In this document: positions 3,728-61,767 of the stretch, in pieces | How the letters are laid out: every line of letters begins with the position of its first letter | Numbering within the stretch: the stretch's first letter is position 1 | Assembly (NCBI RefSeq): GCF_020520425.1 | Contig: NC_079491.1 | Span: 40,786,027 to 40,850,026 of the forward strand | Direction: 5' to 3' | Source: Spinacia oleracea | Taxonomy: Eukaryota; Streptophyta; Magnoliopsida; Caryophyllales; Amaranthaceae | DNA length: 64,000 bases | Position numbers and translations under genes: made by a program | The notes under the pieces: generated by a model | Seen by the model: only the letters and a program-made list of their open reading frames with translations | What the model was told of the DNA's origin: nothing | Database searches by the model: none

Positions 3728-3996
3728 CACTACAAGAAATTGTACTATTAACGACGGAAAATCCCGTCGCTAAAGGCCAATAATTGTTGATTAACGACGG
3801 GATTTTCCGTCGCGAACCCGTCATAAAAGGGGGCCGTCGTTAATGGGAAATCCCGTCGTTAACCTGTCGTAAAAGACATTTGTGACGGCTGTTCCCGTCT
3901 TTGTTGGGTTGTTATCCCCGTCGCAAAAACCCTTTTACGACGAGATTTTTACCCGTCGTTATTAGGTTGTCATAAAAGATATAAATTTTTGTAGTG
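3728..3996 (+). mobile_element. CACTA-type MITE, copy 1
   Basis: It starts CACTACAAGAAATTG and ends AAATTTTTGTAGTG, with a 3-bp target duplication TGA on both sides, as expected for CACTA transposons. The 269-bp interior is built from repeated ACGACGGG and CCCGTCGT words, so either strand can fold. There is no ORF. It belongs to the same family as the elements at 4091, 4451 and 49003. Confidence 0.85.
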
Positions 3997-4090
3997 TGAA
4001 AGGTGAAGAAACGAAAAGACTACTACTCAAACTTTGGATTTACTTTAACATTTTAATCTAAGGACCTAACCTTTCAAAATGTCACAAATT

Positions 4091-25301: not shown

Positions 25302-26850
25302 TGTAACGCCCCGACCTCTAATTCAGTTATTAAAGCATAATTAGCAGCGGAATTAACCTAATTGGTCGGGACATTACCTGTCGTAACTTTATTTTTGGAA
25401 ATTACAAGGCAAACATCAATCATAAGCTATTAAATACTCCAAAATATATATAATAATCCTTTATATTACCAAAATAAAAGTACATAACTTACTAAAAGTC
25501 TTTAATTAAACTATTAAAACTTTAAGCATAAACTAGGTGAATATTATTAAAGTGAAAATTCCTCGCCATTACTCGTGTCCATCGTCTCCATCAGTACCTA
25601 AAACAGAAAACGAAACGGTGAGTCGAAGACTTAGTAACGAACTATTCTAGCAGCGTAAATTCATTTCAATTCATTTTATTTAATAACACAGGGAGAATAG
25701 AATAGGTAAAACATTTAATAAAACATCATATTTAATTCATTCATAAACTTTGCAATTTAACATGCTAGTTGTCGGCAAGTACGACCCGTGAAGGAATTCT
25801 CCACTGGGCCTGGACCCATAAGAGCCTGGGCTCATCATCGAACTGTAACATTGGGCCTGGGCCCCGAGCCTAGGCTTATAACCATGGGAGCATGGGCTCG
25901 TAATCCATGGGTGGACAGGTGTCCGTGGTGCATGCATGACCGGTAGATAGGAAGATAGTAGTTTATATAATGCTAGACAAACCAGGTCTTTCACTTTCAT
26001 TTATCATGTTGTATGTAATTTTACCAAGCCTTGGCTTGTATTTCAGTTGAAATAACATAACTCATTTAGCTCATAAAACATAATTTTGATCCTGGGATCA
26101 ATAAAAATATCATATCTTTCAAAGCATTGCATAAACATAATTTTATGAGAAAACTCAACCAAATCATATTATAAGAAACAATTCAAACAAATCATATTTC
26201 ATCCCATAATCCATAAAACACATCAAAACATTGGATTGAATCACAGAAAATCGTGGTTGAGTGGTGGTGAGAATGGTGGTGGTGGTCAGTGGTGGATGCG
26301 GTGGTGGTAGACGGTGGTTGATGGTGGTTGATTGGATTGAATCACAGAAAATCAAGGAGTGAGATTGAAATTGAAATTGTATTTGGTTTGTTATTGAAAT
26401 TCCATCTTAATTTCTGAATTTGTATATGTGAAGTGTGATGAACAAGGAGGTGTGCTTGGGGTCCAAGTATCTGCATTTGGACTGAATTGTGGGAAGGAAG
26501 GAAGTCTTGACTTCCTGTTTTATACGTGGAGAGCAAGGGAAGAAAAAAAAAAGTAATTTTTGGTTTCTTGAGGGTATTTTCGTAATTTTACAATATTTGG
26601 CCAAAATTCAGAAATTGTTGCTATTTTTGGAAGTTGCTAAAAATAAAAATTTTTAATTAAAATAATTTCTCATAAAAATTATCGTTAACGAAAAATAAAT
26701 AATTTTCGTTTATAAATTTATCGTTTAAAATAAATCGTAAAAACGATTAAAATAACGAAATTCGATTATTCGTAATTTATTTAAAACGAAATCAAGTTAA
26801 TAAATATTTTTAATTTTAATAAATCGAGTTTAAAATTTCGGGGTATTACA
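25302..26850 (-). repeat. Tekay element 3' LTR (internally deleted)
   Basis: Both ends match the 5' LTR, but this copy is 1549 bp against 2558 bp. The segment equivalent to about 32712-33755 is missing, replaced by a short duplicate of GGATTGAATCACAGAAAATC at about 26231-26250. Confidence 0.88.
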
Positions 26851-27027
26851 TCCTTACCCCCTTAGAAAAAGTTTCGTCCTCGAAACTGGAGCTCAGTCGA
26901 ACTATAGCCATTCATAGAAATCATACAATTCATACTTTATCGTTCTATTCGCTATACAAACATGGCGGGATAATATTATAATATAGTCATTCAAATAACA
27001 TATTAAAATTCATACATCTTATCGTTT

Positions 27028-30000
27028 CTAAACGAATAACTGGGGATATTTCGCTCTCATTTGCGCTTCGACTTCCCATGTAGCTTCAGATGTCAAGTGG
27101 TTAGCCCACAAGACATTAACCATTGGAATTACTTTGCTTCTAAGTCGTTTCTCTCTTCGTTCTAGAATTTCAATTGGTTTCTCCTCGTAAGTTAAGTTGT
27201 TTCGCAACATCAAGGGTTCGTGCGTAATCACATGGCTAGGATGAGGAACATATTTTCTTAACATCGACACATGGAACACATTATGCACATTTTCCAAGTC
27301 GGTTGGTAAAGCTAGTCGATATGCTACTGCACCTACTCTTTCTAATATCTCATATGGTCCGATGTATCTTGGGCTCAACTTTCCCGTTTGACCAAATCTC
27401 ATATTCCTTTCGTTGGCGAAATTTTCAAGAACATGTGATCTCCAACCTCAAACTCTAGTGGTCTTCTTCGTTGGTCTGCATAACTCTTTTGCCTACTTTG
27501 TGCTGCCATCATTCTTGATTGGATTAAACGAATCTTGTCAGTAGTTTCTTGAATCAATTCTGGTCCTATAACACGCGCCTCATCGATATCACTCCAACAT
27601 AATGGTGTTCGACATTTCCTTCCGTAAAGTGCTTCGTAAGGTGCCATACCAATGGTGGCCTGATAATTGTTGTTGTATGAAAATTCAACCATAGGTAGAA
27701 ACTTTTCCCACGTCCCTTGAAAATCCAAAACACATGCTCTCAACATATCCTCAACAATTTGGTTAGTGCGTTCTGTTTGTCCATCAGTCGTTGGATGAAA
27801 TGCGGTACTGAAGTTAAGTTTCGTCCCAAGAGCTTTCTGCAATTCTTTCCAATAGGTTGATTGATACCTCGTATCACGATCATAAATAATCGAGCTAGGC
27901 ACTCCATGCAATCGCACAATAGTGTTCACATATAGTTCAGCAAGTTGATCTAAACTCGAATTGCTCTTCATTGCTAAGAAATGCGCTGACTTTGTTAATC
28001 GATCAACAATGACCCAAATAGCATTCATTCCCTTGGTTGATCTTGGTAAACCTATGATAAAATCCATTGAAACTGAATCCCATTTCCATTCCGGCACATC
28101 CAGAGGTTGCAGCAAACCTGCTGGTCTTTGATGCTCAATCTTGATTCTCTAACATGTCAAACATTTAGCCACATATTCTGCCACTTCTTGCTTCATGTTG
28201 CTCCAACAATACACTTGCCTCAAATCCTTATACATCTTATTTCCTCCAGGGTGAATCGAGTATGGTGAACTATGAGCTTCTTCTAAAATTCTCTTTTTCA
28301 ACTTCTCATCATTAGGCACACATAATCTTCCCTGAAACCTTAACGTGCCATCCTCTTGAATGACAAAACCAGGCGACTTCCCATTTTCCACTTCACTCCT
28401 TATTCTTTCTAATTGTGAGTCCTTACATTGCGCTTCCTTAATCTCATCAATCAAAGTTGGCTTCATTACCAACACATTCAAACAAGAATTTCCTTTGATA
28501 AACTCAATTTCCATCTTTTGTAGATCATCTTGGTTGAATCGGGAGAAAGTTAGGATAGAATTTAGGTGAGACTTCCGACTTAATGCATCTGCAACAACGT
28601 TAGCCTTTCCGGGATGGTATTGAATATCAAGGTCATAATCTTTAAGAAGTTCTAACCACCTACGTTGTCTCATGTTGAGTTCTTTTTGGCTGAAAATGTA
28701 TTTAAGACTCTTATGGTCGGTGAAAATTTGACACAAAACTCCATACAAATAATGTCTCCAAATTTTAAGGGCAAAAACAACAGCTGCAAGTTCGAGGTCA
28801 TGGGTAGGGTAGTTTTGTTCATGAACTTTGAGTTGGCGTGAAGCATAAGCTATAACTTTTCCATTTTGCATTAAGATACATCCTAACCCATTCTTAGAAG
28901 CATCACTATAAATAACAAATCCGTCAGTTCCAGATGGAAGGGTAAGAATAGGGGCAGTGGTGAGACGTTTCTTAAGTTCTTGAAATGCATATTCACAATT
29001 ATCATTCCACACAAATTTGGTATTCTTTCTAACTAATCGGGTTATGGGTAAGGCAACCTTAGAAAAGTCTTGAACGAATCTTCGATAATATCCAGCTAAA
29101 CCCATAAAACTCCGTACTTCGGGTACATTAGTTGGTCTAGGCCATTCCACAATTGCTTTTATTTTCTCAGGATCAACAAATACACCTTTCTCAGAGATAA
29201 TATGACCTAAAAATGATATTTCCTTAAGCCAGAATTCACATTTCGACAACTTAGCATATAACTGGTTTTCAATCAACATATCTAACACTTTTCTCAGATG
29301 CTCCTCGTGTTCCTCATTACTCTTAGAATATACAAAACTATCATCAATGAAAACAACTACAAACTTATCAAGGTATGGTTTAAAAATACGGTTCATCAAA
29401 TCCATAAATACAGTTGGCGCATTGGTTAACCCAAAAGGCATCACAACAAACTCATAGTGACCATATCTAGTTCTAAAGGCTGTCTTTGGAATATCCTTAG
29501 GTTTAATTCGAAGTTGATGGTAACCTGACCTCAAATCAATCTTAGAAAACACTTTTGCACCTCGAAGTTGGTCAAATAAATCATCAATACGGGGTAAAGG
29601 ATACTTATTCTTAATAGTAATCTTGTTTAACTCTCAATAATCTATGCATAAACTCATAGTTCCGTCCTTTTTCTTCACAAACAAGACATGGGCTCCCCAA
29701 GGTGAAACACTAGGTCAAATATATCCTTTTTCAAGTAACTCATCTAATTGTTTCTTTAATTCTTGTAACTCAGTTGGTGCCATTCTATATGGTGCCTTAG
29801 AAATAGGGGTGGATCCCGGAATTAATTCAATGCTGAAATCTAATTCTCTTGGTGGGGGCATACTAGGTATTTCTCCTGGAAACACATGTGGGTATTCACA
29901 AACAACAGGTCTGTCAGTAATGGAAGGTCCAGAAGTGTTTAGGTCAACAACACTACATAGATAACCAGATAAACCACTCTCAATCATTTTACGTGCTCTC

Positions 30001-30340
30001 AAAGCATGGACAATTTGAATCGTTGGTTTTCTTACTAACTTATGGAACAAAACTCTATCTCCATCTAGCGTTCTAAGGGTCACACTTTGCCTCGAACAAT
30101 TAAGATTAGCTTCATACTTAGTCAACCAATTCATTCCCAAGATTACGTCAAATTCAGATAGGTCAAAAGCTATTAAGTCTGCTAGAAAATCCACTTTCTC
30201 TATTATGATAGGGCAATCTCTATACATGGTTCTACATTTCACAATTTCTCCACTAGGAAGGGAAACACTCATATATAGCATGAAAGTCACAACATGGTTT
30301 CAAATTTAAACATTTTGCAAACAATAGAGAAATAAAGGAA
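27028..30340 (-). pseudogene. Tekay pol: protease, RT, RNase H, integrase with chromodomain, disrupted
   Basis: Protease (LFDSGASHSFIS) is fused to the gag frame near 30340. After a frameshift the 30290-29715 frame continues through VILGMNWL to the RT head. Stops near 29715 and 29637 follow. The 29552-28149 frame has RT ([29 protein letters not shown]), RNase H ([28 protein letters not shown]) and the integrase zinc domain ([13 protein letters not shown]), and ends at a stop. The 28115-27399 frame carries the catalytic core ([26 protein letters not shown]) and stops in an ATGA overlap, a one-base frameshift. The 27402-27028 frame carries the GPY/F-like IGPYEIL, then a chromodomain (KPIEILERREKRLR, TWEVEAQMR). 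Chromodomains steer integration to heterochromatin in this branch. Confidence 0.93.
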
Positions 30341-31570
30341 TGTGAAGCTCCGGAATCAAAAAGAACATGAGCTGCTAAAGAATGGATAGAGAAGGTACCG
30401 GTGATAACATTATAATTCTCATCTGCCTCATCCTGTCTCATCACAAAAACTCTTCTAGCTGGCGATGGTCGGGGTGGGTTGCGGCTTGAACCTCCTGTGT
30501 TGTTGTTGTTCAGATCACGATCGTTGTTAGTTGAAACTGGTCCTCTCATGTTTGGGGTTACCTGCTTCGGACAATCTCTGATGTAATGATCATGGCTCCC
30601 ACATCGTAAACAAGTGTTTGATCCTGCACGACATTCACTCTCGATGTGGCCTCTTCTCCCACACTTGGCACATTCTTGTGCCCTATTATTCTGGTTTCCA
30701 AGATAACCTTGTCCTTTGTTTCCAACATTGTTCCTCCTTTGATTTCCCTGATAGAATTGCTTAGGCTTCTTTGCTCCTCCTTGACTTTGGTTTTCATTTC
30801 TCCTTTTATACCCAACATTCTTCGCTTCTCGAAGCAGTACCACTCGCTCTACATTAGCTGCAATATCAACCATATCCTGATATGAAGTAAACCTTTGAGT
30901 GGACAACATATCCTGATACTTAAGGTGCAGACCTCGCTCGAAACGGTTCATCCTGGACTGCTCTGTCGACACCAAGTCTGGTGCAAACCTTGACAACTCC
31001 ATGAATTTATTTGCGTATTCCAACACGCTCATTGTTTCTTGTTGCAAGTGTAGAAATTCATCTCCTTTTTGTTTCCTCAAGGATGGTGGATAAAACTTGT
31101 CTCTCATTAACTTCTGTAGATTCGTTCTAACCAAATCCAGGCCCATTCTTTCGTTCCTTGTTAACTTTCCACCATAATCCTGCTTGACCCGTCAAGTAAA
31201 ACACTGCGAAATCAACTCTCCATTTCTCAGGGCATTGCAGGGTTTCAAACAACTGATCAATGCGACTTATCTAATCCTCGAACTCAACTGGATCGGGCTT
31301 GCCATCATAGGATGGTGGGTTGAGTGACTAAAAGTTCTTGAACATCGTTGCGCTCTCGTTCCCACTTATATCTTTCTTTTTCCGAGAAACCCGGACTAAT
31401 TCAGCCAACATTGCACTCACATTTTCCAATCGTTCCATCCTTTCCTCATGGCCATTAACATGGACATACTCCTCGTGAATAATGTCGTTATCATCGAGAA
31501 CATGATGCTCGTTGCGAGCTCCGTTGGTAACATCGTTGATAGCATCAATGGTCGACATTCTGCATAACAT
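30253..31570 (-). pseudogene. Tekay gag, disrupted
   Basis: The Met near 31555-31570 (MSTIDAINDVTNG) opens a frame that stops at 31328. Another stop lies near 31275. The main gag frame runs 31146-30253 with the core (LRKQKGDEFLHLQQ, VLEYANKFMELSRFAP) and two zinc knuckles, CAKCGRRGHIESEC and CLRCGSHDHYIRDC. It then runs into the protease Asp motif. Gag would coat the RNA. The two early stops prevent a full product. Confidence 0.88.
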
Positions 31571-31769
31571 ATCTTATCAGATTGAAGTGATAATAATATA
31601 AAATGAACCCTTTGATCCCATTCCCACACTCACACTCATATTCATTTTAACTTAGCAAAATTTTAGAACATTCTCTTTAACTTATTCCCTAAAATTCTTT
31701 ACTTAAAGCCTGATGGATTCTATTCGTGCGAAAACCCGTAAGAATTAGCATTTATGCTCCAAAACCTTT

Positions 31770-31781
31770 GCTCTGATACCA
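31770..31781 (-). other. Tekay primer-binding site (tRNA-iMet)
   Basis: The minus strand reads TGGTATCAGAGC three bases after the LTR end, complementary to the 3' end of initiator methionine tRNA. Confidence 0.92.
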
Positions 31782-31784
31782 AAC

Positions 31785-34342
31785 TGTAACGCCCCGACCT
31801 CTAATTCAATTATTAAAGCATAATTAGTAGCGGAATTAACCTAATTGGCCGGGACATTACCTGTCGTAACTTCCTTTTTGGAAATTACAAGGCAAACATC
31901 AATCATAAGCTATTAAATACTCCAAAATATATATAATAATCCTTTATATTACCAAAATAAAAGTACATAACTTACTAAAAGTCTTTAATTAAACTATTAA
32001 AACTTTAATCATAAACTAGGTGAATATTATTAAAGTGAAAATTCCTCGCCATTACTCGTATCCATCGTCCCCATCAGTACGTAAAACAGAAAACGAAACG
32101 GTGAGCCGAAGACTCAGTAACGAACTATTCTAGAAGCGTAATTTCATTTCAATTCATTTTATTTAATAACACAGGGAGAATAGAATAGGTAAAACATTTA
32201 ATAAAATATCATATTTAATTCATTCATAAACTTTGCAATTTAACATGCTAGTTGTCGGCAAGTACGAACCGTGAAGAAATTCTCCACTGGGCCTCGGCCC
32301 ATAAAAGCCTGGGCTCATCATCGAACTGTAACATTGGGCTTGGGCCTTGAGCCTGGGCTCATAACCATGGGAGCCTGGGCTCGTAATCCATGGGTGGACA
32401 GGTGTCCGTGGTGCATGCATGACCGGTAGATAGGAAGATAGTAGTTTATATACTGCCAGACAAACCAGGTCTTTCACTTTCATTTATCATGTTGTATGTA
32501 ATTTTACCAAGCCTTGGCTTGTATTTCAGTTGAAATAACATAACTCATTTAGCTCATAAAACATCATTTTGATCCTGAGATCAATAAAAATATCATTTCT
32601 TTCAAAGCATTGCATAAACATAATTTTATGAGAAAACTCAATCAAATCATATTATAAGAAACAATTCAAACAAATCATATTTCATCCACAATCCATAAAA
32701 CACATCAAAACATTTAATTCATAAATTCAATCATAACGTCATAATTTCATAATACATTTATAAGGGGATTACGGGTACTAGCAATAGCCTTTACCTCACT
32801 TCCACGATTTTGCTAAGGATTTTCGTTGGTTCGTTCGTCCTGAGCTCCGTGTCCAATTTCTTTCAAAATATTAAATAATTGAATTAGTACTAAATCGATA
32901 AATAATTATAAAATCAATATTTGATAAAATCGTAAATTTTATAAGTAATAAATTTATAAATAACGAATTTTAATAAAAATATAATTTCGAAATTTAACGA
33001 AATATTATTATTAATCGGATTTTCAATCGAAATACATATAAATTTTGTAAATCAATTTTCATGAAAATATTATTTAAATTCCATTTTGATAAATAAAACT
33101 AGAATCCTATTCTCATAAAATCGATAATAAAACCTGAAAAATAATAAACAATTTTATTAGTAAATATGCATTTTATAAAAATTATTAAATCATAATTATT
33201 GATAAATTAGATTCTGAAAATTATAAATCAGGCTTAACTCACCCAAAAAGCCCAAATTGTAAAATGGCCCAATCTGAAATTGGGTTTGAGGGAGGATAAA
33301 AATCAAGTTTCAAATGAAACTGATTCCTCTTTTTGTTTGAATGAGGGCACGAACAGGGGAGCACGAAGGAAGGAAGAGAGGAAGGGAGCGTGGAGGCTGG
33401 GTTGGGCTGGGCTTCACCAGGGATTTTGACGGCGATGGTGACGGTGGTTGAACGACGGCGGAGAAGTTAAGGGGAGGTGGTGAGTGGCGCGAAGAAGGGG
33501 AAGAAACAGAGGAGATTGGTGGGTTTTTCGATCGGGATTTTGGAAGGGGAATGGTGGTTCGCCGGAGTTTTAGGGGCGGAGGTTGGTTGGAGAGATGATG
33601 AGGGTGGCTGGAGGTGGTGGTTGTTGTCGGAGGTGGTGCGACGAGAGAAAGAGAGAAAGAGGCAAAGGAGGCGAGAAGGGAGGAGGGAGCAGGGGAAGAT
33701 AGCTACGGTGGGGGTGGTGGTGTTTGGTGTTTTTGGGTGGTTGGGAGGTGCGGGGTGGTTGAGTGGTGGTGAGAATTGTGGTGGCGGTCAGTGGTGGCTG
33801 CGGTGGTGGCAGACGGTGGTTGGTTGGATTGAATCACAGAAAATTAAGGAGTGAGATTGAAATAGAAATTGTATTTGGTTTGTTATTAAAATTCCATCTT
33901 AATTTATGAATTTGTATATGTGAAGTGTGATGAACAAGGAGGTGTGCTTAGGGTCCAAGTATCTGTATTTGGACTGAATTGTGGGAAGGAAGGAAGTCTT
34001 GACTTCCTGGTTTATACGTGGAGAGCAAGGGAAGAAAAAAAAATGGAATTTTTGGTTCCTTGAGGGTATTTTTGTAATTTCACAATATTAGGCCAAAAGT
34101 CAGAAATTGTTGCTATTTTTGGAAGTTGCTAAAAATAAAAATGTTTAATTAAAATAATTCCTTATAAAAATTATCGTTAACGAAAAATAAATAATTTTCG
34201 TTTACAAATTTATCGTTTAAAATAAATCGTAAAAACGATTAAAATAACGAAATTCGATTATTCGTAATTTATTTAAAACGAAATCAAGTTAATAAATATT
34301 TATAATTTTAATAAATCGAGTTTAAAATTTTGGGGTAATACA
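31785..34342 (-). repeat. Tekay element 5' LTR
   Basis: It spans 2558 bp, with ends TGTATTACCCC and GGGGCGTTACA on the minus strand. It contains a G-rich stretch (33330-33830 on the plus strand) missing from the 3' LTR. The first 370 bp from the inner end differ from the 3' LTR at about 13 positions by eye. Confidence 0.9.
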
Positions 34343-49662: not shown

Positions 49663-50262
49663 CTAAGGTTGATTCCAAAAGTTGTGATTTCCTGAAAAGT
49701 TGCCATAATCTTCTTCTTCATTATCATAACCATGATCATAATCAACATAAGCAGGGACATCCAAGCGAGGAGGGCTAAGAAGCATTCCATGAGCCATATT
49801 TGTCAACACATTTGGCATATCAAATATCAAATCTTCATCCATAAAATATTCTTCAGTCCTTTTCCCCTTATCAGTATTTTCAGCATCATTTTCGTGGTTT
49901 TCCTTTCTTCCAAAATTCAATGCATCAGCAGCTGCCCCAGCAGCTGCAGCTGCAGAGGCAGCTGCTGCCTGAATATCCCTGGGAGAAGTGGAGTGTGGGA
50001 CTGGCAACGAAGGGGATGATTCTGGAAAGTTGAGTTGGGTATTGGGGCCCTTCAAAGCTAGGGATGCCACATCATATGCCACAGCAGCCATCTCTTGGGT
50101 AGGGTAAGAACCAAGCCAAATTCTAGTAGGTTTTTTAGGCTCTCGAATTTCCGATACCCATTTCCCGTTCTTCCTACGTCTTACACCTTTGTAGGAAGAC
50201 CGAGATGACTGACTGCTAGTGTAGTTGGAACCTTCTGGATTTTGTTGAGTGTGACGATGCAT
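49663..50262 (-). CDS. AP2/ERF transcription factor, DREB-type (ERF025/026/027-like)
   Basis: An intact, intronless 199-residue protein. One AP2 domain covers about residues 24-81 ([48 protein letters not shown]). Val14 and Glu19 of the domain (WVSEIRE) are the residues that mark DREB members, which bind DRE/CRT promoter elements. After [12 protein letters not shown] comes an Ala-rich segment (residues 99-113). An acidic C-terminus then includes [23 protein letters not shown] (residues 143-165, shown in parts), a motif of the A-4 (TINY-like) branch and a likely activation region. Single-exon structure and length fit the family. The start is the first Met after an upstream non-coding stretch. 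It would act in the nucleus, probably in stress or growth responses. It is the only host gene here that looks functional. Confidence 0.9.
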
Positions 50263-50968
50263 GGTTATGGTTATGGTTACGGATATGATTACTATGAGTA
50301 GGGTAAGTTACAAGGAAACTTCGTTGGAAGGAAGAAGCCATTTTATATGCGTAATACCCAGCTCAGTTTCCTAAACACTTGGATTAGAGATGAGGAAAGT
50401 GCAATCCAGATGAAGATGAACTTCACTCGTTTGCGGATAGCTGGTTAATGTAAGAGTTAATTTGGTAAGTTTGTTGCCAGACAGCTTTTCAAGTGTTGGA
50501 AATGCAGGCATATAGTAATTATTTCTTAGAGTTGCTGATCGATAAAAGGGCTTCCATCAGACCATCACTATAACAACAATAGTGGGATATTGTGAGTGAT
50601 GAGAGTGTGGGTTCTGAGGTTGATTAATGGAATAGAACAGTGTTTCCTGTCTTCCAAAAACGTGTGTGTTCGTGCGTGTCGATGATTTGACATAATTTGA
50701 ATTACTTTGATGTTGTATGATTGGTTTATTTCCGATATCTATGTTGGTACCAGGTAGAATATTTGTTCTTTTGAGATTTTTATGTATCTTTCTAATTATT
50801 TGTCTTTGTCTTTGTCTTGGTTTCAAAGTATAATACACCCATAATCAGCTCCCTCCGTGCATGACTTATTTACTCGTGTTTATGGATGAGTTGCGTGCTT
50901 GACATTCATTGAAAAGTTGTAATTTTAAAAATCGGTCATGTGGTTTTGAATATAATCTAATATATCTA
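50263..50968 (-). promoter_or_regulatory. Upstream region of the ERF gene
   Basis: A TATA-like CATATAAAA (minus strand, about 50341-50349) lies about 80 bp before the start codon, so transcription probably begins near 50315. The copia element 50969-55620 begins about 700 bp upstream, which limits the native promoter. Confidence 0.45.
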
Positions 50969-51274
50969 TGTTATAACATATGCAAAGAAAGAATTAATAA
51001 CGTAATAAAGAACGCAGAGAATTTAACGTGGTTCAGCAACAATGTGTTAGCTACGTCCACAGGATAGAAGGGAGAAAAGTTTTATTAATCTTGAGGATTA
51101 CAGATTACAGAATACAACTAGGTTATGATCTAAAGAGTTTATATAGTACTCTCTAGACAGATGCGGAAAAGCCCAGAAAATAGGCCCAAAACATATAACC
51201 CTAGTCTAGAATAACAGTCCCCGTGCTGGGGCGTTGCAGTATGGGGCTTGACCGATTCAAGGCATTATCTAACA
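50969..51274 (-). repeat. Copia 3' LTR (minus element)
   Basis: 306 bp, TGTTAGATAATG to TTATAACA on the minus strand. It matches 55317-55620 apart from about 23 differences. Confidence 0.9.
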
Positions 51275-51388
51275 AATCTCCACCTTGACTTGAATCCTCT
51301 CACAAATAACAGATGTACCAGATCCACCATTATAATGCCAGATGTACCAGAAACTCCTCTGCCTCAGATTTTGCTCTCAAAAGGGCAA

Positions 51389-53191
51389 TCAACAACTCCT
51401 AACATTTAGCAAGTTCATACAGTGTTGAAACTTGCTATGTGGAACCGGCTTGGTGAACATATCGGTTGGGTTATCAGCAGTACCCACTTTGTTCACCTTA
51501 ATTCTCTTCTCACTTCTCAGAAAATGATACCTTACATCGATGTGCTTATTCCTCTCATGATGTACTTGATCCTTAGCTAAACAGATTGTACTGTGACTGT
51601 CACAGTACACTATAGCTTGATCATGATGTAGACCCAAATCACTAACCAACCCTTTCAACCATATTCCCTCTTTTGCTGCTTCTGTCAATGCCATGTACTC
51701 TGATTCTGTAGTAGACAAAGTCACCGTAGGTTGCAAAGTATCTTTCCAACTGACAACTGAACCACCAAGAGTGAAAGCATAACCAGTCATAGATCTTCTA
51801 CTGTCAACATCTCCAGCATAATCAGAGTCTGAAAACCCTGTCACCAAACACTCTGTATCACCTCCATAAATGAGACCAACATCAGATGTACCTTTTAGGT
51901 ACCGAAAAATCCTCTTCACAGCTTGCCAATGCTCCTTTCCAGGTTCACCCATAAACCTACTAACAACACTAACAGACTGTGCCAAATCAGGTCTAGTGCA
52001 GACCATTGCATACATCAAGCTTCCTACTGCACTAGCATAGGGAACTCGAGACATGTACTCCTTCTCCTCGATCAACAGACTTAGGTGCAAAAGCAACCGA
52101 CATATGTGCATTTGCAGCACTAGGAGTATCTATTATCCCTTATGTGATAAGAAGGGCTTCTTTTTGCTTTTATCCCTATAAATCTCCATCCCCAGAATTT
52201 TCCGAGCCGCACCCAAATCTTTCATCTCAAACTCAGCACTAAGGAGATCCTTCAACTTCTGAACATCAGACTTGTTCTCTGCAGTTAACAACATATCATC
52301 TACATACAGGACCAGATAAATCAATGAACCATTTGCTGCCTTGCTATAGTAAACACAACAATCATACGGACTCCTGGTGTAGCCGATCTCTATCATATAG
52401 CTGTCGAATCTCTTATACCACTGCCTCGGAGACTGCTTTAGTCCATACAAGGACTTCTTCAACTTGCAAACATAATCTTCCTTACCAGGAACCTGAAAAT
52501 CATCTGGCTGAGTCATGTATATCTCATCTTCCAACTCTCCATGCAGAAAAGCTGTCTTCACATCTAGTTGTTCAAGCTCCAGATCCTGATGTGCAACTAT
52601 TGCTAGTAGCACCCTGATGGAAGTGTGTCTGACCACTGGTGAAAAAATCTCATTGTAGTCTACTCCCTCTCTCTAAGTGAACCCTCTAGCTACTACTCGA
52701 GCTTTATACTTGATACCCTCAACAGATGTTTCTCCTTCCTTTTTCTTGTAGACCCATTTACAAATGACGATCTTTCTTTCTCGAGGTCTCTTGGTTAATT
52801 CCCAAGTCTGATTCTTATGAAGTGACTCCATCTCATCTCCCATTGCAGCAAGCCATTGGGTAGACTCAGTACATGTGACTGCTTCTTTGTAGGTGGATGG
52901 CTCATCAGAGTCAGGATCCACCTCTTCAGTAACCTGTAGTGCATAGGCCACCATATCTTTAAAACCATATCTCTTGGGAGGCATCCCATAATTAGCTCTC
53001 TTTGATCGATCAAGAGCCAAATTGTGCTGAATCGCTACTGGTAATGAAGAAACTGATGGTTCTGATTCTGACTGTGGTTGTTGACCTTCATCTTGTGGTT
53101 CACTCTCATCTAGAGTGACTTGCTGCTGCACCTGTTTCTCAACACTACCACTTTCTGACACAACAATAAACTTCACAGTAGGGTTAAACAT
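51389..53191 (-). pseudogene. Copia RT and RNase H, disrupted
   Basis: The frame 53191-52673 carries the integrase-RT linker and start of RT (RSKRANYGMPPKRYG, WLAAMGDEMESLHKNQTWEL, CKWVYKKK). A stop at about 52673 follows KARVVARGFT. The 52636-52133 frame has RT (EQLDVKTAFLHGELED, KSLYGLKQSPRQWYKRFD, LYVDDMLLTA). The 52120-51389 frame holds RNase H (SDSDYAGDVDSRRS, WKDTLQPTVTLSTTESEYMALTEAAKE, VYCDSHSTICLAK) and the usual end TADNPTDMFTKPV. It would copy the RNA into DNA. The stops between the three frames disable it. Confidence 0.9.
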
Positions 53192-53398
53192 AGAATTTTC
53201 ATCAAAGACTACATTTCTACTTAATATAACCCTCTTTTCAGATGGGACCAGATTCTATACCCTTTAACCCCATCCCCATAGCATACAAATACTCCGTTTT
53301 TAGCTCGTGGCTCTAATTTACCCTCATTTACATGATAATAAAAAGTAAAAACAAAATCTCTTAAACTAGAGTAATCAGCAGGCTTACCAGACCACACC

Positions 53399-53788
53399 TC
53401 AATAGGGGTTTTGAGATGTATACCTGTGTGAGGTCCACGATTGATCAGATGTACTAACCGCTTCTGCCCAAAATCTTCTAGTTAGTCCAGCATTAGAAAA
53501 CATGCACCTAGCTCTCTCCAGAAGTGTCTGATTCATACGTTCTGCTACACCATTTTGCTGTGGTGTATCCCTGGCTGTATGATGCCTAGCATTCCCTTCA
53601 TTCTTGCAGAACTCATCGAACTCAGACCGACAAAATTCCAGACCATTATCAGTTCGCAGCCTTTTGATCTTCTTCCCTGCTTGATTCTCCACTAATGCCT
53701 TCCACTGTCTGAAAATCTTAAAAGCTTCACTTTTATGCTTCATAATGAACACCCAAGTCATCCTTGAGAAATCATCAATCATTGACAA
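53399..53788 (-). pseudogene. Copia integrase core fragment
   Basis: The catalytic triad is visible: SMIDDFSRMTWVF, RTDNGLEF, and DTPQQNGVAERMNQTLLERAR. A stop lies just upstream, where Tyr is expected after GHR, and the C-terminal end runs off frame near 53440. Confidence 0.88.
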
Positions 53789-53805
53789 AAATTATCTGTG
53801 ACCCC

Positions 53806-55263
53806 TTAAAGACTCCACCCGGGAAGGACCCCAACAATCAGAATGGATGTAATCAAGTGTGCCTTTTGTTCTGTGTATACCTTTAGGGAACTTGCTGCGA
53901 TGTAGTTTCCCAAAAACACAATGTTCAAGAATTCAAGATCCGTGACCTTGTGACCACAAAGAAGATCCGCTTTTGACAGAATTTGCATCCCTCTTGCACT
54001 CATGTGACCAAGCCTCATATGCCATAACTTGTTCATGTTCTCCTTATCAATCTCCAAGGATGCAACAGCAATAGAACCTGATAACGTAGATCCTTGAAGA
54101 ACATACAAGGTACCACGTTTTACACCTTTCAAAACCACATTCGAACCCTTGCAGACATGTAAAACTCCACCTTCACCCTGAAAACTGAAACCCTTGTTGT
54201 CTAACATACTCAAAGATATCAGATTCTTTGTCATAAGTGGAACATGCCTAACATCATTCAATGTGCAAAATTTACCATCATGTGTCCGAATTTTAATTGA
54301 GCCTACTCCAACCGCCTTACAAACAGAACTATTAGCCATAGAAATATTGTCACCGTCTACTTGCTCGTAGGTTGTAAACCACTCCCTGCACGGAGATATA
54401 TGGTAAGACGCTCCAGAATCAAGGATCCACACATCACTGTGATGCCTGTGCTCATCAGCAACTAGAGCAATATCCTCTTCAGAATTGGTATCAGCTACCG
54501 CAGCAAGACCTGGCGATTTATCCTGTTGCCTCTTCTTCTTGGAACAATCAGATTTCCAGTGTCCCTTCTCCTTACAATAATTACAGACATCATTATATTT
54601 AGGACCCTTAGAAACTGGTTTCTTGAATTTCTTCTTCCCCGAATTTCCATGCCCATAACTCCCACTGGCTACTAACCCAGCAGCCTGATTATCTGTACCT
54701 GTACCAGTCGCCCTATGGCGCAGCTCTCTAGTATGGAGGGACGATCTAACCTCCACTAGAGAAATAGTATCTCTACCAACAATAAACGATTGCACGAAAT
54801 TTTCATACGATATTGGTAAAGAAACTAACAAAATTAAAGCAGTATCCTCATCTTCAATTTTAACATCAATATTACGCAATTCTAATAAAATTGTGTTTAA
54901 TTGATCTAAGTGATCTCGGAGAGGCATACCTTCCTGCATTCGCAGACTGAACAGACGTTGCTTCAGAAGCAACTTATTGGTTAAGGACTTTTTCATATAC
55001 ATACTCTCGAGCTTAACCCACAGACCTTGTGCGGTTTCCTCCTCCGCGACCTCGGTGATGATATCGTCAGCAAGATACAACAAAATCGTCGAGTGTGCCT
55101 TCTTCTCCAGAACGGCCATCTCATCGGTGATTGGATCCGCCGACTTCCTAGCAAGCGACGACCATAACCCTTGTTGTTTCAACAAGGCTCGCATCTTGAT
55201 TCGCCATAAACTGAAACTATTACTCCCGGTAAATTTCTCGACCTTCACGTTAATACCAGACAT
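53806..55263 (-). pseudogene. Copia gag, protease and pre-integrase domain
   Basis: The start at 55263 (MSGINVKVEKFTGSN) is preferred over an upstream Met. Gag core: SFSLWRIKMRALLKQQGLW and LTNKLLLKQRLFSLRM. A zinc knuckle, CNYCKEKGHWKSDC, lies near 54540-54580. The aspartic protease has WILDSGASYHISP. The pre-integrase zinc domain has LWHMRLGHMSARGMQILSK but its Cys pair lies in the degraded tail. The frame is open to a shift near 53830. This is the Tork/Tnt1 style of copia. The product would be cut by its own protease. Confidence 0.9.
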
Positions 55264-55301
55264 CTTTCTCAAAAGAAATTTCAAACCCTAGAACAGATCT
55301 G

Positions 55302-55313
55302 GCTCTGATACCA
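55302..55313 (-). other. Copia primer-binding site (tRNA-iMet)
   Basis: The minus strand reads TGGTATCAGAGC four bases after the 5' LTR end. Confidence 0.9.
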
Positions 55314-55316
55314 GTT

Positions 55317-55620
55317 TGTTATAACAGATGCAAAGAAAGAATAAATAACGTAATAAAGAACGCAGATAATTTAAGTGGTTCACGAACAATGTGTTAGCTA
55401 CGCCCACAGGCAGAGGGGAGGAAATTTTTATTGATCTCGAGGATTACAGATTACAGAATACAACTAGGTTATGACCTAAACAGTTTATATAGTACTCTCT
55501 AGACAGATGAGAAAAAGCCCAGAAAATAGGCCCAAAACAGATAACCCTAGTCCAGAATAACAGTACCCGTGCTGGGGCGTTGCAGTAAGGGGCTTGACCG
55601 ATTCAAGACATTATCTAACA
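55317..55620 (-). repeat. Copia 5' LTR (minus element)
   Basis: 304 bp, bordered by the ATCTA target duplication at 55621-55625. Confidence 0.9.
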
Positions 55621-56143
55621 ATCTAATTAAAATGAACATATTTCTTAAGATATTAGAAGCTCCACATTGACAAGTGTATTATTCGACCAATGAAAAAAGA
55701 GGTATCCAATTTATTTAGAATTAAATATTTTAATTGGTAAATCAGTAAAAATAACGAATTACAGTAGTCAAAATAAATTAAATAAACTAAATTTGTAATT
55801 GTTTTATTAATCCTTTTAGCAAAATTATCTAAATCAATTCTATCTACATACATGAATAATTAGTACCCAGTAAATTAACCACATGTCAAATATATATTGG
55901 AACTAGATTTAAGCTCTTGCAATACACGAGTTAATTTATGTTGTGTTTTATTATTTAATTTTCCACTGTCTTTCTTTGTTCATCATCACACTATAACCGT
56001 CTACTTTTATAATCAAAACTGTCATTCAAATTTGACATTAAATTTTGTTAACGTATACGTAGCACGAAGTATCAGATTTTATCTTTTGAATATTGTTTCT
56101 TCGTAGCTCATTAGTCCAGTCAACCCTTTAGAGGGAAATAATA
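55621..56143. other. Intergenic, AT-rich
   Basis: No gene or element is recognised. It begins with the second copy of the ATCTA target duplication. Confidence 0.4.
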
Positions 56144-56190
56144 TTATTTTAACGTCTTGTTATTTGGAAGTCATGGGTAACTTAAAGATT

Positions 56191-56233
<43 letters not shown>

Positions 56234-56275
56234 TTAACGTCTTGTTATTTGGAAGTCATGGGTAACTTAAAGATT

Positions 56276-56352
<77 letters not shown>
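56144..56352. repeat. 85-bp tandem duplication with (TA)n tracts
   Basis: TTATTTTAACGTCTTGTTAT with its 60-bp context occurs at 56144 and again at 56229, each followed by a TA dinucleotide run. The second run is about 70 bp. Confidence 0.85.
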
Positions 56353-56353
<1 letters not shown>

Positions 56354-58184
56354 ATCATATATATATATCAAGGAAAATATAGAAGTAACATAAATTTTTG
56401 TGGAAATCTACAATCATTTTGTTTGGTGTGATCTTATTAAATATTTATCTTATAAGTACACGGAGTACAAAATAGGAAAATATAGAATATGATAATTTTG
56501 AAGCAATGTTTTGTTTACTTTTCAATTTTATTGTGAGTTGATAGTCAGTTTTGGTTCTGGAATTAGCTGATTTAGAAACTGTTTTAGAGAAAATTTGTGT
56601 GAAAAACTGGAATTAGCTGCATTTGAAGCTGTTGTAGAGAAAATTTGTTGGTGTTGTTCAATTGAGGTCAGTTGGTGGGAGTTATACTGCTATAACTTTG
56701 TTGCACTTGGTGATTATCTAACTCAAAAGTAAAGCAAAAACTGAAAAACGTAAATAGAAATGATCTAAAAGTAAACAAAATATGGCCAGGTTCTGGTTCG
56801 TATGTATTGTAGGTCACGTAAGAGTGGTGTCGGAGTTCCTGAGGATCCATCAGGAAATGGATGTGTGACTACTCCTTACCAAGGACTAGGGTTAAAATGT
56901 GTTGAAGTAAACGAAAACTGTGCTAAAGTAAACTTAATATCTCTAAAAGTAAACGAATTTATACGAGTTCAGCAAGTAGGATATTGACTGGGAAAAAATG
57001 TGGATTATGTGACTGAACTGTTGGGGTTGATCATTTGGTGTCTTCCTAGCTTCTCATATGGTGAAAACGTAAACTAAATTGAATTAAAAGTAGACTAAAT
57101 AACTTGGAAAATGTTGAAATATAGATGTTGTAACGATTTGTGATTGTTGCTCTGCCTGCTTGTGTTCTTTTCTGTTCTGAATTGTGTTGTTGTTTGCTGC
57201 TACTGTTTGGATCTTACTGCTATTTTTGATCTTCTTTACTGTTTTGTATCTCTGATCTGTGCTTTACCTGGTGGTCATGTTCCTGTGTTACTGTTATTTT
57301 GTTCATGTTTTGTTGTTTTGGTATGTGGTTCCATGCTTTAAGTTGTTTTGTCATGTTTAAGCCAAAATTGTGCCTGTTTGTTAGTTTTGGTCGTTTTATT
57401 CTTTTGCAATTGTGTTTTTCTTATTTGGTGTTCGTAAAGTGTTTTTTGTGCCATAACCTTGATTCTTATTTGGTGTTCTTAAAGTTTTTTTTCTCCAATT
57501 TTAAAAAGTAGATAGATGTTGGGTAAAAGTAAACAAATTACACTTAGAAGTAAATTAAACTGTTAAGTTCTTTGGTTCTGTAGCTGCTCCTGTTTGTTCG
57601 GTTCTTTTTTATTCTTCAAAGTAGAAGTAAATCAATTAGACTCCAAATTAAATCAATATAGGTTGATGGTTATTTGTATAACTTGTTTGCTTAGACTCCT
57701 GATATGCTTATTAGAATTCATGTCCTATCTTGTATTGAGCATGCACTATATTGCTTAGACTCCTGACATGAAGTAATTTTTTTTTGAAGGTACTTGACAA
57801 GAACTAATCATCTATTAAAAACTGTTGTCCTGTTGTTGATTGTCACAATTGATTGTTGTCGCCATTGCCGTATAGTGTTGTGTAGGAACCAACAATTTCT
57901 AGTGTTGCGTTAATTTAATTGGACGCTCTTTTAGGATGTAATGATGATGTGATGAACATGATTGGCGCGGAACACATTTTTGGAAAGGGCCCGTCTATTT
58001 ACAGTCTGCATAAGCGTCCTGTGACGACGTATATGAGAGCATTTAAGTTCTCATTTTGTACCATTTGGCTTATCATCTCTCAGGTTGATCCACAAGAGTG
58101 TATTTCTCGTGTTAATTCCACGTATATGAATGTCAAAACCAGTCACCCGGTTTGTAAATTGATCAACTCTACTAGACATGCTTA

Positions 58185-58256
58185 AACCTATTAGCTCAAA
58201 TGGTAGAGCACTATGAGAATGCATAGGTGATGTAGGTTCGATTCCTACATAGGTTG
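58185..58256 (+). tRNA. tRNA-like cloverleaf 1 (non-canonical anticodon loop)
   Basis: 72 nt fold with no mismatches. Acceptor AACCTAT/ATAGGTT, TA linker, D stem GCTC/GAGC, anticodon stem CTATG/CATAG, T stem GTAGG/CCTAC with loop TTCGATT, then G. The anticodon loop is six bases (AGAATG), one short, and lacks the U33 expected of a decoding tRNA. Internal box A- and box B-like sequences are present. It may be a tRNA pseudogene or a tRNA-derived element rather than a working tRNA. Confidence 0.45.
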
Positions 58257-58625
58257 TCTCTAAAAGTAATCTTTTAAAAAAATCTCAAAAGTAACTACAA
58301 GAAACTCCATAGTAAATAAAAGGAACTCAAAAGTAAATTAATAATAATAACTCAAAAGTAAATCAAAATATTTTTGATGTACATTTACAACTAGTATACA
58401 GTAAACCTGATTGTTGAATAGCTTCGAAATGTTTGCTATAATTTCTCATGCCTGAAGTATAATCTGTCAACAAACTTAACTTCTCATGTGTAGAGTATTT
58501 AGTAAGTAGAGTTGGTCGAAAAGTAAATGGAATTTTTCGAAAAGTAAACTATGAATATTGGAGTGTAGGGAGGTCAAAGTAAAGGTTTTAAAATTAAAAG
58601 TAAATAAAGGAAATTCAAAAGTAAA

Positions 58626-58681
58626 CGAACCCACATCGTTTGTGCATTTGCACAATGCTCTACCAATCGAGCTAGTAGGCT
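58626..58681 (-). pseudogene. tRNA-like structure 2, truncated
   Basis: Minus strand: acceptor half AGCCTAC, TA, D arm GCTC-GATTGGTA-GAGC, anticodon stem TTGTG/CACAA around the six-base loop CAAATG, then GTGGGTTCG. It then runs into a GTAAAC motif copy, losing the rest of the T arm. It is homologous to structure 3. Confidence 0.55.
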
Positions 58682-59270
58682 GGCGTTTTTAAATAAAATA
58701 AATAAAAGTAAAGCAAAAACCCAAACAAGTAAATCAAAATAATTCAAAAGTGAAGGCCGCCCTTGTTGTTGCTTCAATAATAAGCAGCACTTGGGAAAGC
58801 TAATCAATAAAAAAAAACTTACTGAATCCATCAGTCTTGGTGTCCACCTCTGTAGTTGAAGTATTTTTTTTCATTTGAAAGCGTCATGATGGGGACAATG
58901 TTCTTATGTCCTAAACACTAAAAGTCAGTATTACCATTGCAAGCTTCAAAATAAATTTCTGCATAAGACCTCAAGAACCATGAGACCAGAACGTGAATGC
59001 CTAGCTGACTAGAACAAATAAAGTTGCATCTGATCAATTGAAACTATGTCGGAAAACAAGATTGGTACAACAAGTCAACAACAAGAGGAATATAAAACAA
59101 TTCAAAAGTAAATAATATCATCTCAAAAGTAAATTAAAATTTCTCAAAAGTAAATAAAAAAAAATCAAAAATTTTATACAACATAGAAACTCCAAGTATT
59201 GGAGTATATGGAGGCCAAAGTAAACGTTTTCAAACTAAAAGTAAATAAGACAATAAAAAAAGTAAATATG

Positions 59271-59340
59271 AACCTACGTGGGATTCGAACCACATCTTTT
59301 GTGCATTAGCACAATGCTCTACCTATTGAGCTAGTCGGAT
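59271..59340 (-). pseudogene. tRNA-like structure 3
   Basis: Minus strand: acceptor ATCCGAC/GTAGGTT (5 of 7 pairs), D arm GCTC-AATAGGTA-GAGC, anticodon stem TTGTG/CACAA with six-base loop CTAATG, and a T arm of four pairs (GTGG/CCAC) with TTCGAAT. About 80 bp of sequence next to it is also shared with structure 2, so these two are a segmental duplicate pair. Confidence 0.55.
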
Positions 59341-59559
59341 AGTGTTACCTGACTATAAAGTACGAGTAATTAATTACAAAGTCAATAGATCAACTTTGGT
59401 AATGTAGCAAGTCAAACTACAAAGCTGGCTTCAAACCAGCACCAATGGAAAATAAGCATCACCAACTTAGCACAATTCTACAGTAACCTATTGCTTGCAC
59501 CCACCCCAAGTAACCAGGCCTTCATTGGCCACAATGTAATAGCAAAACAAAAAACATAT

Positions 59560-60176
59560 AATATCAGCCTGCTTGACCTGCCATCACTGGGCTCACGAGA
59601 AGAACTTGGCCTACTTCATGATGCAATTGCTGATCTCTTTGAAGTACTCTTGTTCCTTGAAATACAACTTCTTTCACGGTTTGCTTGCTGAACAAGTGAA
59701 CATATAACATATTGTTGTTATTACCATTGTTATTTTCCCTGTAATCAGTGCAATCTGCTAGACAATCAAATTAAAAAGACATACATGAAGCCAACTCATG
59801 CTCCCTTTACCTGCACGGCCCAATTGAATAAAGAAAATAAACCTTACTAAACCAATGAAACAGATCTACTTTGATGGCTGGGACTCCAAAAAGAGCTAGC
59901 ACTAAATGTACTTACCACATCCTTCGATGATGGATCATCTGATGATCTATGACGTGAATGATCACCTTGCGAACCCAAGCCTGGATGATTTCTTCTAGCA
60001 AACGCCTCAACTGCGCCAGAAATTTATCCCGAATTTCTTGTCCCCATGGAGCATAAACCCAACAGTCTGTAATACTTAAATAAAATAAAATAAATGTATA
60101 TGTACTACAAAATACCTGAAGTCCTCTCAGCTCTTTCAGCAGAAGGTCCAGGAGTTAAAGCTGGTTTTGCGGCTGG
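59560..60176 (-). pseudogene. Casein kinase 1-like (CKL) C-terminal gene fragment with introns
   Basis: Three exon pieces with splice borders read on the minus strand. 60176-60116: after TCTTGCAG, PAAKPALTPGPSAERAERTS, ending CAG/GTATTT. About 60070-59916: GQEIRDK, a one-base loss, then SGAVEAFARRNHPGLGS and GDHSRHRSSDDPSSKDV, ending GTG/GTAAGT. About 59688-59560: NRERSCISRNKSTSKRSAIAS, a TGA stop, then SRPSSSREPSDGRSSRL. This is the Ser/Arg-rich tail that follows the kinase domain in plant CKL proteins, cytosolic or nuclear Ser/Thr kinases. The kinase domain is absent. Retained introns show a DNA-level copy, not a retrocopy. Confidence 0.75.
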
Positions 60177-60659
60177 CTGCAAGATTAAGATCACAGACCA
60201 TATAAGACATGTGTTCAGTTCTGAAAAAATAACCAACTATATGCCATAATACTAACCCTTGGTCTGGAGCTAGAACCAATTATTTTGTGGATATTTCAAA
60301 ATTGTCCAATCAAATACATAGTCAAATTGGTAACCTGTGCCAAAAAACAACATTTAAGATTCTACGGAATCAATTGAATTTCAATACATAAACCTAATTT
60401 CACAAAATCAATTGAATTCTATACATAAACACCTAGCTAATTCCAGGAAAAAAAATTAAAAAACCCTAATTCAACGACTGAATCAAAGGAACTCAATTCA
60501 ACAAAACTACTAATTCAAAGAAATCAACTGAATTAACCTAATTCCACAAAATCAAAAGAAAACCACAAATTCGAGCAAAATCAACTCGAAAGATTGAATC
60601 AAATGCATAAATTTCAATCGAAAGATTAATTGAAGAAAACATACAATATTAAACGAGTA

Positions 60660-60860
60660 AAAATAACTTACAAATTATTGATTTTCAAGAAAGATGAAGG
60701 AATTGGATCTACAAATTTTGGCAGAAGACGCAAAGAACAGAGGAGAGAGGTCGAAAATGGCTGAGGAGGTTGAGAGAGAACGATCGCAGGAGAGGAGGGA
60801 GGAAGAGAGAGAAAGAGATTCTGAAAACTGGGGAAGTGGGAGAAGTCATTCAATGTGGGT
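60660..60860 (-). other. CT-rich, 5' UTR-like stretch
   Basis: The minus strand is rich in TCTCTC runs and reads like a plant 5' leader. It includes a 61-codon Ser/Pro/Leu-rich frame (60668-60853) with no family. Being upstream of the kinase fragment on the same strand, it could be the leader of that gene with the middle part deleted. This is inference only. Confidence 0.3.
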
Positions 60861-60986
60861 AAATTACTAATCTACCCTTAATATTTTCTTTTGGTCGGGT
60901 AGATCTTCGGTCATTGGGTTGCTTACATCGACGACTGAAATTGGTTCTCTGTTTTCATTTTAAGGGGTGGTTCTCACCAGATCCCA

Positions 60987-60989
<3 letters not shown>

Positions 60990-61049
<60 letters not shown>
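60990..61049. repeat. (TA)n microsatellite
   Basis: About 30 TA repeats in a row. Confidence 0.95.
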
Positions 61050-61050
<1 letters not shown>

Positions 61051-61653
61051 CTTTGTCTAATAAACACATTATCTAACACTACTTGAGAGATTGTACATAT
61101 ATTTTATTACATTTTATGTCAAGCAAGTGTCAAAAAGTAGGTTCAGCAAAACTAGTTGAAAACACGAAATGAAAGTGGATATCATATTTGAAAAATAGGA
61201 TATCCTAAACTAATATGTGCCATATTTTGTGTTGGTAAGTATAATGAGAAATATAAACTTGCATATAATTTTATACTGTGTACTTAATTTTTTACTATTC
61301 TGTTATTTTTTTTATATATAAACAAATTAATTCATTGATAAAAAGTCATACGACATCTACATAAAGATTTAAATCTAACAAATACATAACAATCGAATCA
61401 AATAAAAACTTCCTTTCACCATAGCTACGATCATAGTATATCAAACATTCTGTATACCCTCTTTTATATCGTTGTGATTTACAGCCTTCATTGACGAGGG
61501 GGTCTATAGATCTGTTGTAGCCGTGACAAATATGATTTTCGTCTGATTCGTCTGATTGTAGTCGAAAGATTGACATCCTCTTCAATCCCGCATAAATCTT
61601 TACCAAAGAAACAACCGAAACTAAACTAAACACACAAAACTTAACTTAAAAAC
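61050..61653. other. Intergenic DNA, no recognised gene
   Basis: A 95-codon minus-strand frame at 61346-61633 has no recognised family. The rest is AT-rich. Confidence 0.35.
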
Positions 61654-61767
61654 AAACCCACCATAGGGGTACTTACTACACCGAAACCATCAAACCCACC
61701 ATAGGGGTACTTACTACACCGAAACCATCAAACCCACCATAGGGGTACTTACCACACTGAAACTATG
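61654..61767. repeat. 38-bp tandem repeat, three copies
   Basis: AAACCCACCATAGGGGTACT recurs at 61654, 61692 and 61730. The first two copies are identical and the third has two changes near its end. Confidence 0.92.

Follow-up and report, generated by a model that had tools for sequence, protein, structure and literature searches.

A dispersed spinach transposon family with phased motif arrays and tRNA-like units

In the 64,000 nucleotides of Spinacia oleracea DNA analyzed here (NC_079491.1; the whole stretch is called the window), one region, 56717 to 59270, repeats a short motif on a single strand, and we asked what kind of DNA carries such a cluster and what could read it. The first-pass annotation had described a dense one-strand cluster here, and a count by strand against shuffled sequence bears this out. 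Exact AAAAGTAAA occurs 16 times on the forward strand and 0 times on the reverse strand, while 500 local dinucleotide shuffles averaged 0.35 copies and peaked at 4. The statement that the 64 kb hold no second cluster was also correct: of 20 exact forward matches and 1 reverse match in the whole window, 16 of the forward ones fall in this region, leaving 4 and 1 outside it. The figure of about 30 copies is true only of degenerate copies, which number 26 (AAGTAA) to 28 (PWM score of at least 8) against the 16 exact ones. The extended consensus is AAAAGTAAAY followed by a degenerate A-rich linker. The following pyrimidine is kept in 82% of the units, and A reaches 75% at offsets 12 and 13, about one helical turn past the first A-tract.

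Two other descriptions have to be corrected. The copies had been called irregularly spaced, but a distance of exactly 21 bp separates 11 of the 25 neighboring AAGTAA pairs, whereas 20000 random placements within 56717-59270 yield 0.21 such pairs on average and never more than 4; the preferred spacing equals two helical turns. The cluster had also been said to differ from a tandem repeat, but it consists of short degenerate period-21 arrays, which Tandem Repeats Finder calls as well. The arrays are as follows.

56725..56775, forward strand: AAAAGTAAA array 1, with one degenerate copy between 2 exact ones that are 42 bp apart
56903..56953, forward strand: array 2, 3 units at 21 bp
57504..57555, forward strand: array 3, 3 units at 21 bp
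58262..58362, forward strand: array 4, 5 units at 21 or 25 bp, immediately following a tRNA-like unit of type T1
58519..58625, forward strand: array 5, two runs at 21 bp
58704..58754, forward strand: array 6, 3 units at 21 bp
59104..59154, forward strand: array 7, 3 units at 21 bp
59217..59266, forward strand: array 8, 3 units at 21 bp, adjoining the 3' end of a tRNA-like unit of type T2

We scanned the 894-Mb assembly (242 contigs) for exact motif pairs. At 21 bp there are 2168 (1100 + 1068), against 64 (30 + 34) for the control; at 20 bp the counts are 102 (55 + 47) and 28 (16 + 12), and at 22 bp 332 (145 + 187) and 15 (8 + 7). Many of the 22-bp pairs among those listed belong to a distinct 43-bp array near the left ends described below. 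The first 100 of the 21-bp pairs listed fall into 21 clusters, all within the first 37.5 Mb of C1, and 20 of these clusters were fetched at 10 kb each. Among the 201 neighbor distances of up to 100 bp in these and the window, 103 equal 21 and 28 equal 22 (tandem copies at the locus L018 counted). Adjacent units (253 pairs, with L018, a tandem of one small copy, left out) are 92% identical in the core, a value partly ascertained because pairs were chosen for at least 8 of 9 core matches, and 48% identical in the linkers, while unrelated linkers are 40% identical. The 21-bp spacing has thus been kept while the linkers decayed. The plasmids searched gave no match; among viral contigs, 4 records match a triple-motif pattern, with 3 to 7 same-strand AAAAGTAA on the better strand per fetched piece.

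The first-pass annotation had proposed to align other clusters for shared ends, and common left (L) and right (R) ends were found. By BLAST against the fetched clusters, window positions 60951-61047 recur in both orientations at cluster ends. The two ends are related and form an imperfect terminal inverted repeat, L being (TA)n-GGACCAGGTTCTGGTGAGAACCTC... and R being (TA)n-GAATCGGGATCTGGTGAGAACCACC.... The motif clusters mark a dispersed transposon family with such ends, usually beside (TA)n, which flanks most ends and is absent at the R-type ends of L017, L024, and L029. The L-end 24-mer with at most 1 mismatch has 109 + 92 matches genome-wide (control, 0). The first 37.5 Mb of C1 contain 15 such L-ends, spread over 9 of the 21 clusters; every one of them has an exact 21-bp pair no farther than 4 kb away, which is true of 0.5% of random positions. 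Six copies, of 832 bp in one case and 4988 to 6471 bp in the other five, are complete with both ends, and 108 of their 121 8-mer motifs are on the forward strand when read from L to R. At L017, the sole R-type end found stands the other way round relative to its motifs. Four L-ends follow one another at intervals of about 2.5 kb in L018 (C1:22218000-22227999), which makes the 832-bp copy part of a larger tandem array. The window contains the following parts of a family copy.

56197..56368 (56197-56229 and 56282-56368), no strand: (TA)n-rich stretch left of the copy (Tandem Repeats Finder), part of an 85-bp duplication
56493..60990, forward strand: non-autonomous transposon copy, left to right, bounded by the first and last bases alignable to family copies (BLAST)
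60800..60929, reverse strand: conserved right subterminal region with a pyrimidine-rich box (alignment of 7 copies)
60930..60990, reverse strand: right terminal inverted repeat, GAATTGGGATCTGGTGAGAACCACC... read inward, 80 to 91% identical to other right ends (7-copy alignment)
60991..61047, no strand: (TA)28 microsatellite abutting the right end (Tandem Repeats Finder), with similar flanks at most other ends

The conserved L-end sequence is absent from the window, where its pattern with up to 3 mismatches hit only the related R-end. Left of the element, an 85-bp unit containing some of the (TA)n run is perfectly duplicated at 56141-56314. Insertion within (TA)n makes target-site duplications, which are 9 to 11 bp in the Mutator superfamily, unreadable. 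The conserved subterminal region 60800-60929 may be promoter- or 5' UTR-like. The earlier annotation was silent on the end at 60990 and on the tRNA-like sequences between the arrays.

Judged by sequence, the family appears to be a non-autonomous DNA transposon family most like Mutator-like or Pack-MULE elements in TA microsatellites. The accessible part of PMC4486113 describes MuTAnT of Medicago as TA-microsatellite-targeting MULEs, nearly all non-autonomous, with a putative autonomous copy of 4873 bp. The likeness lies in terminal inverted repeats flanked by (TA)n and in the length of that copy, which is close to our long copies; the terminal sequence differs, no mudrA-like frame was assigned to the spinach family, and that part of PMC4486113 mentions neither motif arrays nor tRNA-like units. 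The MuTAnT terminal repeat has one 2-mismatch match in the window, inside the gene fragment described below and at chance level. Pack-MULEs and Pack-TYPE elements carry host gene fragments inside terminal inverted repeats. The spinach copies have reading-frame fragments between such repeats and, beyond these, arrays and tRNA-like units as a conserved set. Spinach repeats are the subject of PMC6337768, as far as its accessible part goes.

Family copies appear to carry host-gene fragments, and the family seems to have captured them. The window holds one candidate.

59850..60023, reverse strand: probable host-gene exon fragment, a 58-amino-acid frame present at 9 genomic places

The 9 places, the window included, are 75 to 100% identical. 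We take the frame to resemble a casein kinase 1-like C-terminal region; Pfam and PDB searches with it returned no family. Its match at C5:43970373 (93% identical) has a tRNA-like match of type T3 at a distance of 2.6 kb and may belong to another family copy with the same cargo. Of the open fragments tested, 9 of 11 match their own locus only. Two RNase H-like (RVT_3) frames, at L023 and L026, match each other, and a fragment at L021 has a weak SLC35F match (E value of 0.003, below the Pfam cutoff).

The annotation had further inferred that the family is marked by a protein of its own and had proposed to look for a linked autonomous copy encoding it. A family with shared ends does exist, but the 20 fetched clusters showed no reading frame common to the family (Pfam on selected frames only), and no autonomous copy, transposase, or DNA-binding protein was assigned to it in these clusters or among the scored transposase matches. 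For PF10551, 150 of 1960 candidates were scored, and for PF03108, 150 of 655; none was assigned to a family copy when placed by eye against the L-end, tRNA, and motif places among the matches listed. Two of the transposase matches listed are near family places. The one at C4:111005802 was rejected as a partner, being outside the right end of the neighboring copy. The other, C1:48699539, is in L039 (C1:48693600-48703599), which with its left end, arrays, tRNA-like units, and MuDR-type transposase was considered as an autonomous copy and rejected as containing a nested MULE. There, the transposase and a GRF-finger-like frame sit between inverted repeats at 3828-4037 and 9911-10119 (98.6% over 211 bp) that are unlike the family ends, and a second copy of the nested MULE is 96.6% identical over 1 kb; these repeats and the second copy assign the transposase to the nested MULE, not to the family. 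This separate MULE (L039:3828-10119, or C1:48697427-48703718) has a MuDR-type transposase (PF03108, PF10551, and SWIM) and, on the opposite strand, the 156-amino-acid GRF-finger-like frame, which is 96 to 100% identical at 7 full-length places including its own, one with a stop, suggesting recent activity. Four other MULE regions have no family ends (only E values of at least 0.34), array, or tRNA-like unit. At L014, a CACTA-type tnp2 frame (2-1351; PF02992 and PF13963) shares 10 kb with a short motif array, but it was left out of the family because a (TA)n run lies between it and the L-end (5222) and that 10 kb yielded no R-end. Gag, DUF4283, and PMD-like frames are present in L024, L022, and L030, and frames common to most loci were taken by eye as other repeats.

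What might read the arrays? The first-pass annotation had pointed to the VANDAL MULEs of Arabidopsis and their VANC proteins. In the accessible part of PMC5735166, Hosaka et al. present the VANC targets as high-density, same-orientation motifs in noncoding DNA, often in rapidly diverging tandem repeats. The parallel holds for the dense, one-orientation array of a short motif in noncoding transposon DNA (PMC5735166 and PMC10398659, as far as accessible) and fails for the motif itself, which is AAAAGTAAAY in spinach and not YAGTATTAY. The latter, the VANC21 motif, shows no enrichment in the window, with 2 matches against an expectation of 2.26. YAGTATTAY holds for VANDAL21, and other VANDALs have other motifs. 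The 21-bp phasing is a feature of the spinach family, as are the tRNA-like units, the word "tRNA" occurring 0 times in the accessible text of PMC5735166, and no VANA/B/C-like gene was found in the spinach family. By this analogy, the most likely reading, to which we give about even chances, is that the phased arrays form a cooperative protein platform acting like VANC targets. AAAAGTAAAY arrays at two-helical-turn spacing would dock one sequence-specific protein cooperatively, encoded by the element or by the host, and the bound protein would counter silencing, as VANC does at its targets. If this is true, VANDAL-like motif arrays exist in another plant genome with another motif, and a natural phased array is at hand as bait for the reading protein.

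Subterminal repeats can also serve transposition itself; TnpA of En/Spm binds such repeats, which are needed for end synapsis. The spinach arrays could be transposase-binding sites of this kind rather than an anti-silencing platform, and several copies do have a separate 43-bp array (21- and 22-bp units) about 90 to 660 bp from the left end, the 832-bp copy consisting of both ends and an array of that type. We nevertheless consider this role unlikely for the motif arrays, as 95 of 105 8-mer motifs in the five long complete copies keep a distance of over 700 bp from either end and no motif lies within 390 bp of the right end in any of the six complete copies. That the phased A-tracts act through DNA shape, by curvature or nucleosome exclusion with no specific protein, would fit the two-turn period and the A-rich offsets 12 and 13, but bending alone would need neither the G-T step, nor the conserved pyrimidine, nor the single strand orientation, all of which are kept, and we hold this to be improbable. 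An equally small probability attaches to arrays born by slippage as a functionless minisatellite by-product: the slightly greater likeness of adjacent over unrelated linkers indicates that some local duplication occurred, and a module is duplicated within the window (58546-58687 and 59187-59346), but the spacing has outlasted the linkers and the neighboring cores, whose matches were part of the selection, are far more alike than the linkers between them.

Besides the arrays, most clusters contain tRNA-like units; a BLAST search that used a single sequence each of T1, T2, and T3 found 37 in the window and 24 regions, 3 of them in the window.

58185..58256, forward strand: tRNA-like unit of type T1 (ARAGORN; Rfam tRNA, 50.7 bits), with a hairpin replacing the anticodon loop
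58626..58681, reverse strand: truncated tRNA-like unit of type T2 (BLAST, 94.6% identical to T2 over 56 nucleotides)
59270..59340, reverse strand: tRNA-like unit of type T2 (ARAGORN; Rfam tRNA, 32.4 bits)

ARAGORN calls such units in 15 of the 20 clusters; BLAST finds them in 16 of 20 and in none of the 4 unrelated MULE regions. The fold is conserved. In 28 aligned ARAGORN units (27 distinct), 96.6% of cloverleaf cells pair, compared with 91.1% in shuffled sequence and no more than 52% after sliding of the cloverleaf. Double-change cells number 45 against 15.9 in shuffles and doubly changed pairs 7 against 4.8, while further pair types show no excess in this set (17 against 16.6); the sequence changes mainly separate the three types, so these are few independent events. 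The anticodon arm is an identical 16 nucleotides in 25 of the 28 units, which have no 7-nucleotide loop there and are best drawn with a 6-bp stem and a 4-nucleotide loop. Such units should not decode, and ARAGORN assigns no amino acid to 27 of the 28, calling the remaining one tRNA-Asn. An A box is present in 31 of 36 units and a B box in 29 of 36 (the truncated window unit omitted). A T4 run follows within 13 nucleotides in all 17 T2 units and within 40 nucleotides in only 4 of 9 T1 and 2 of 10 T3 units, but T4 is common in this DNA (10 of 17 T2, 9 of 9 T1, and 7 of 10 T3 reverse-complemented flanks), and in most T2 flanks printed, the T run is the other strand of a motif array. Patterns for these units had no match in the viral contigs searched.

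That the units are merely tRNA pseudogenes or SINE heads carried along is a thought suggested by the capture of host DNA by plant elements, by the tRNA origin of SINEs, by the missing standard anticodon loop, and by some unit matches that have no exact motif pair nearby (in the first 37.5 Mb of C1, an exact 21-bp pair lies within 4 kb of just 3 of the 6 exact T2 matches and 3 of the 4 strict T1/T3 matches), but we give it little credence in view of the compensatory changes in the cloverleaf; the identity within T1, T2, and T3 of 0.94, 0.87, and 0.89 (8, 11, and 8 units, gaps counted) against 0.29 to 0.58 in their 120-nucleotide flanks, a contrast partly owed to selection by tRNA finder hits; the genome-wide abundance of 384 matches to a T2 35-mer with up to 2 mismatches (179 + 205) and 121 to a strict T1/T3 pattern (59 + 62), with controls of 0; and a layout common to all five long complete copies, with a single sense T1/T3 and either one or two antisense T2, against which stand L015 and L017 with two opposed T3 each. 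No shared SINE body was seen after the tRNA head, the downstream 120 nucleotides being 34 to 58% identical within types. Seven T3-type matches about 3.1 kb apart at C1:66718510-66737243 form a tandem array near an L-end at 66739781.

Instead of decoding, the units beside the arrays might provide internal promoters for Pol III or barrier sites for TFIIIC. In yeast and animals, tRNA genes and TFIIIC are cited as chromatin barriers in the accessible part of PMC9540200. The spinach units resemble these in their mostly intact A and B boxes, while seemingly unable to decode, and differ in riding on a plant DNA transposon, where a barrier role is putative. A few-term search of open-licence literature found no description of tRNA-shaped units in DNA transposons. 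The best explanation of the family, which we would neither bet on nor against, joins both parts: phased arrays serving as a platform for a VANC-like protein, together with tRNA-like Pol III/TFIIIC units. On this reading, the element may supply protein-docking and chromatin-control signals of its own. It is a more doubtful step to a portable chromatin cassette, in which non-decoding tRNA genes for Pol III/TFIIIC and phased arrays read by a family-specific protein would set up an open or bounded domain at each landing site. If true, the recruitment of Pol III factors as boundaries by transposons becomes testable. Gene finders may count the units as tRNA genes or pseudogenes, as ARAGORN called 28 here.

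The window also contains other features. Left of the element, 50969-55624 is a Copia-type LTR retrotransposon (type assigned by eye) with direct repeats at 50969-51279 and 55317-55624 that are 92% identical, and 49663-50307 has a frame that by eye we take to resemble an AP2/ERF transcription factor. A Gypsy-type coding region (by eye) at 25302-34342 has 931-bp repeats at 25302-26232 and 31785-32714 (96.5% identical) and a further repeat pair at 26253-26850 and 33755-34342. At 61653-61766, there are three copies of a 38-bp tandem repeat that are 92 to 100% identical.
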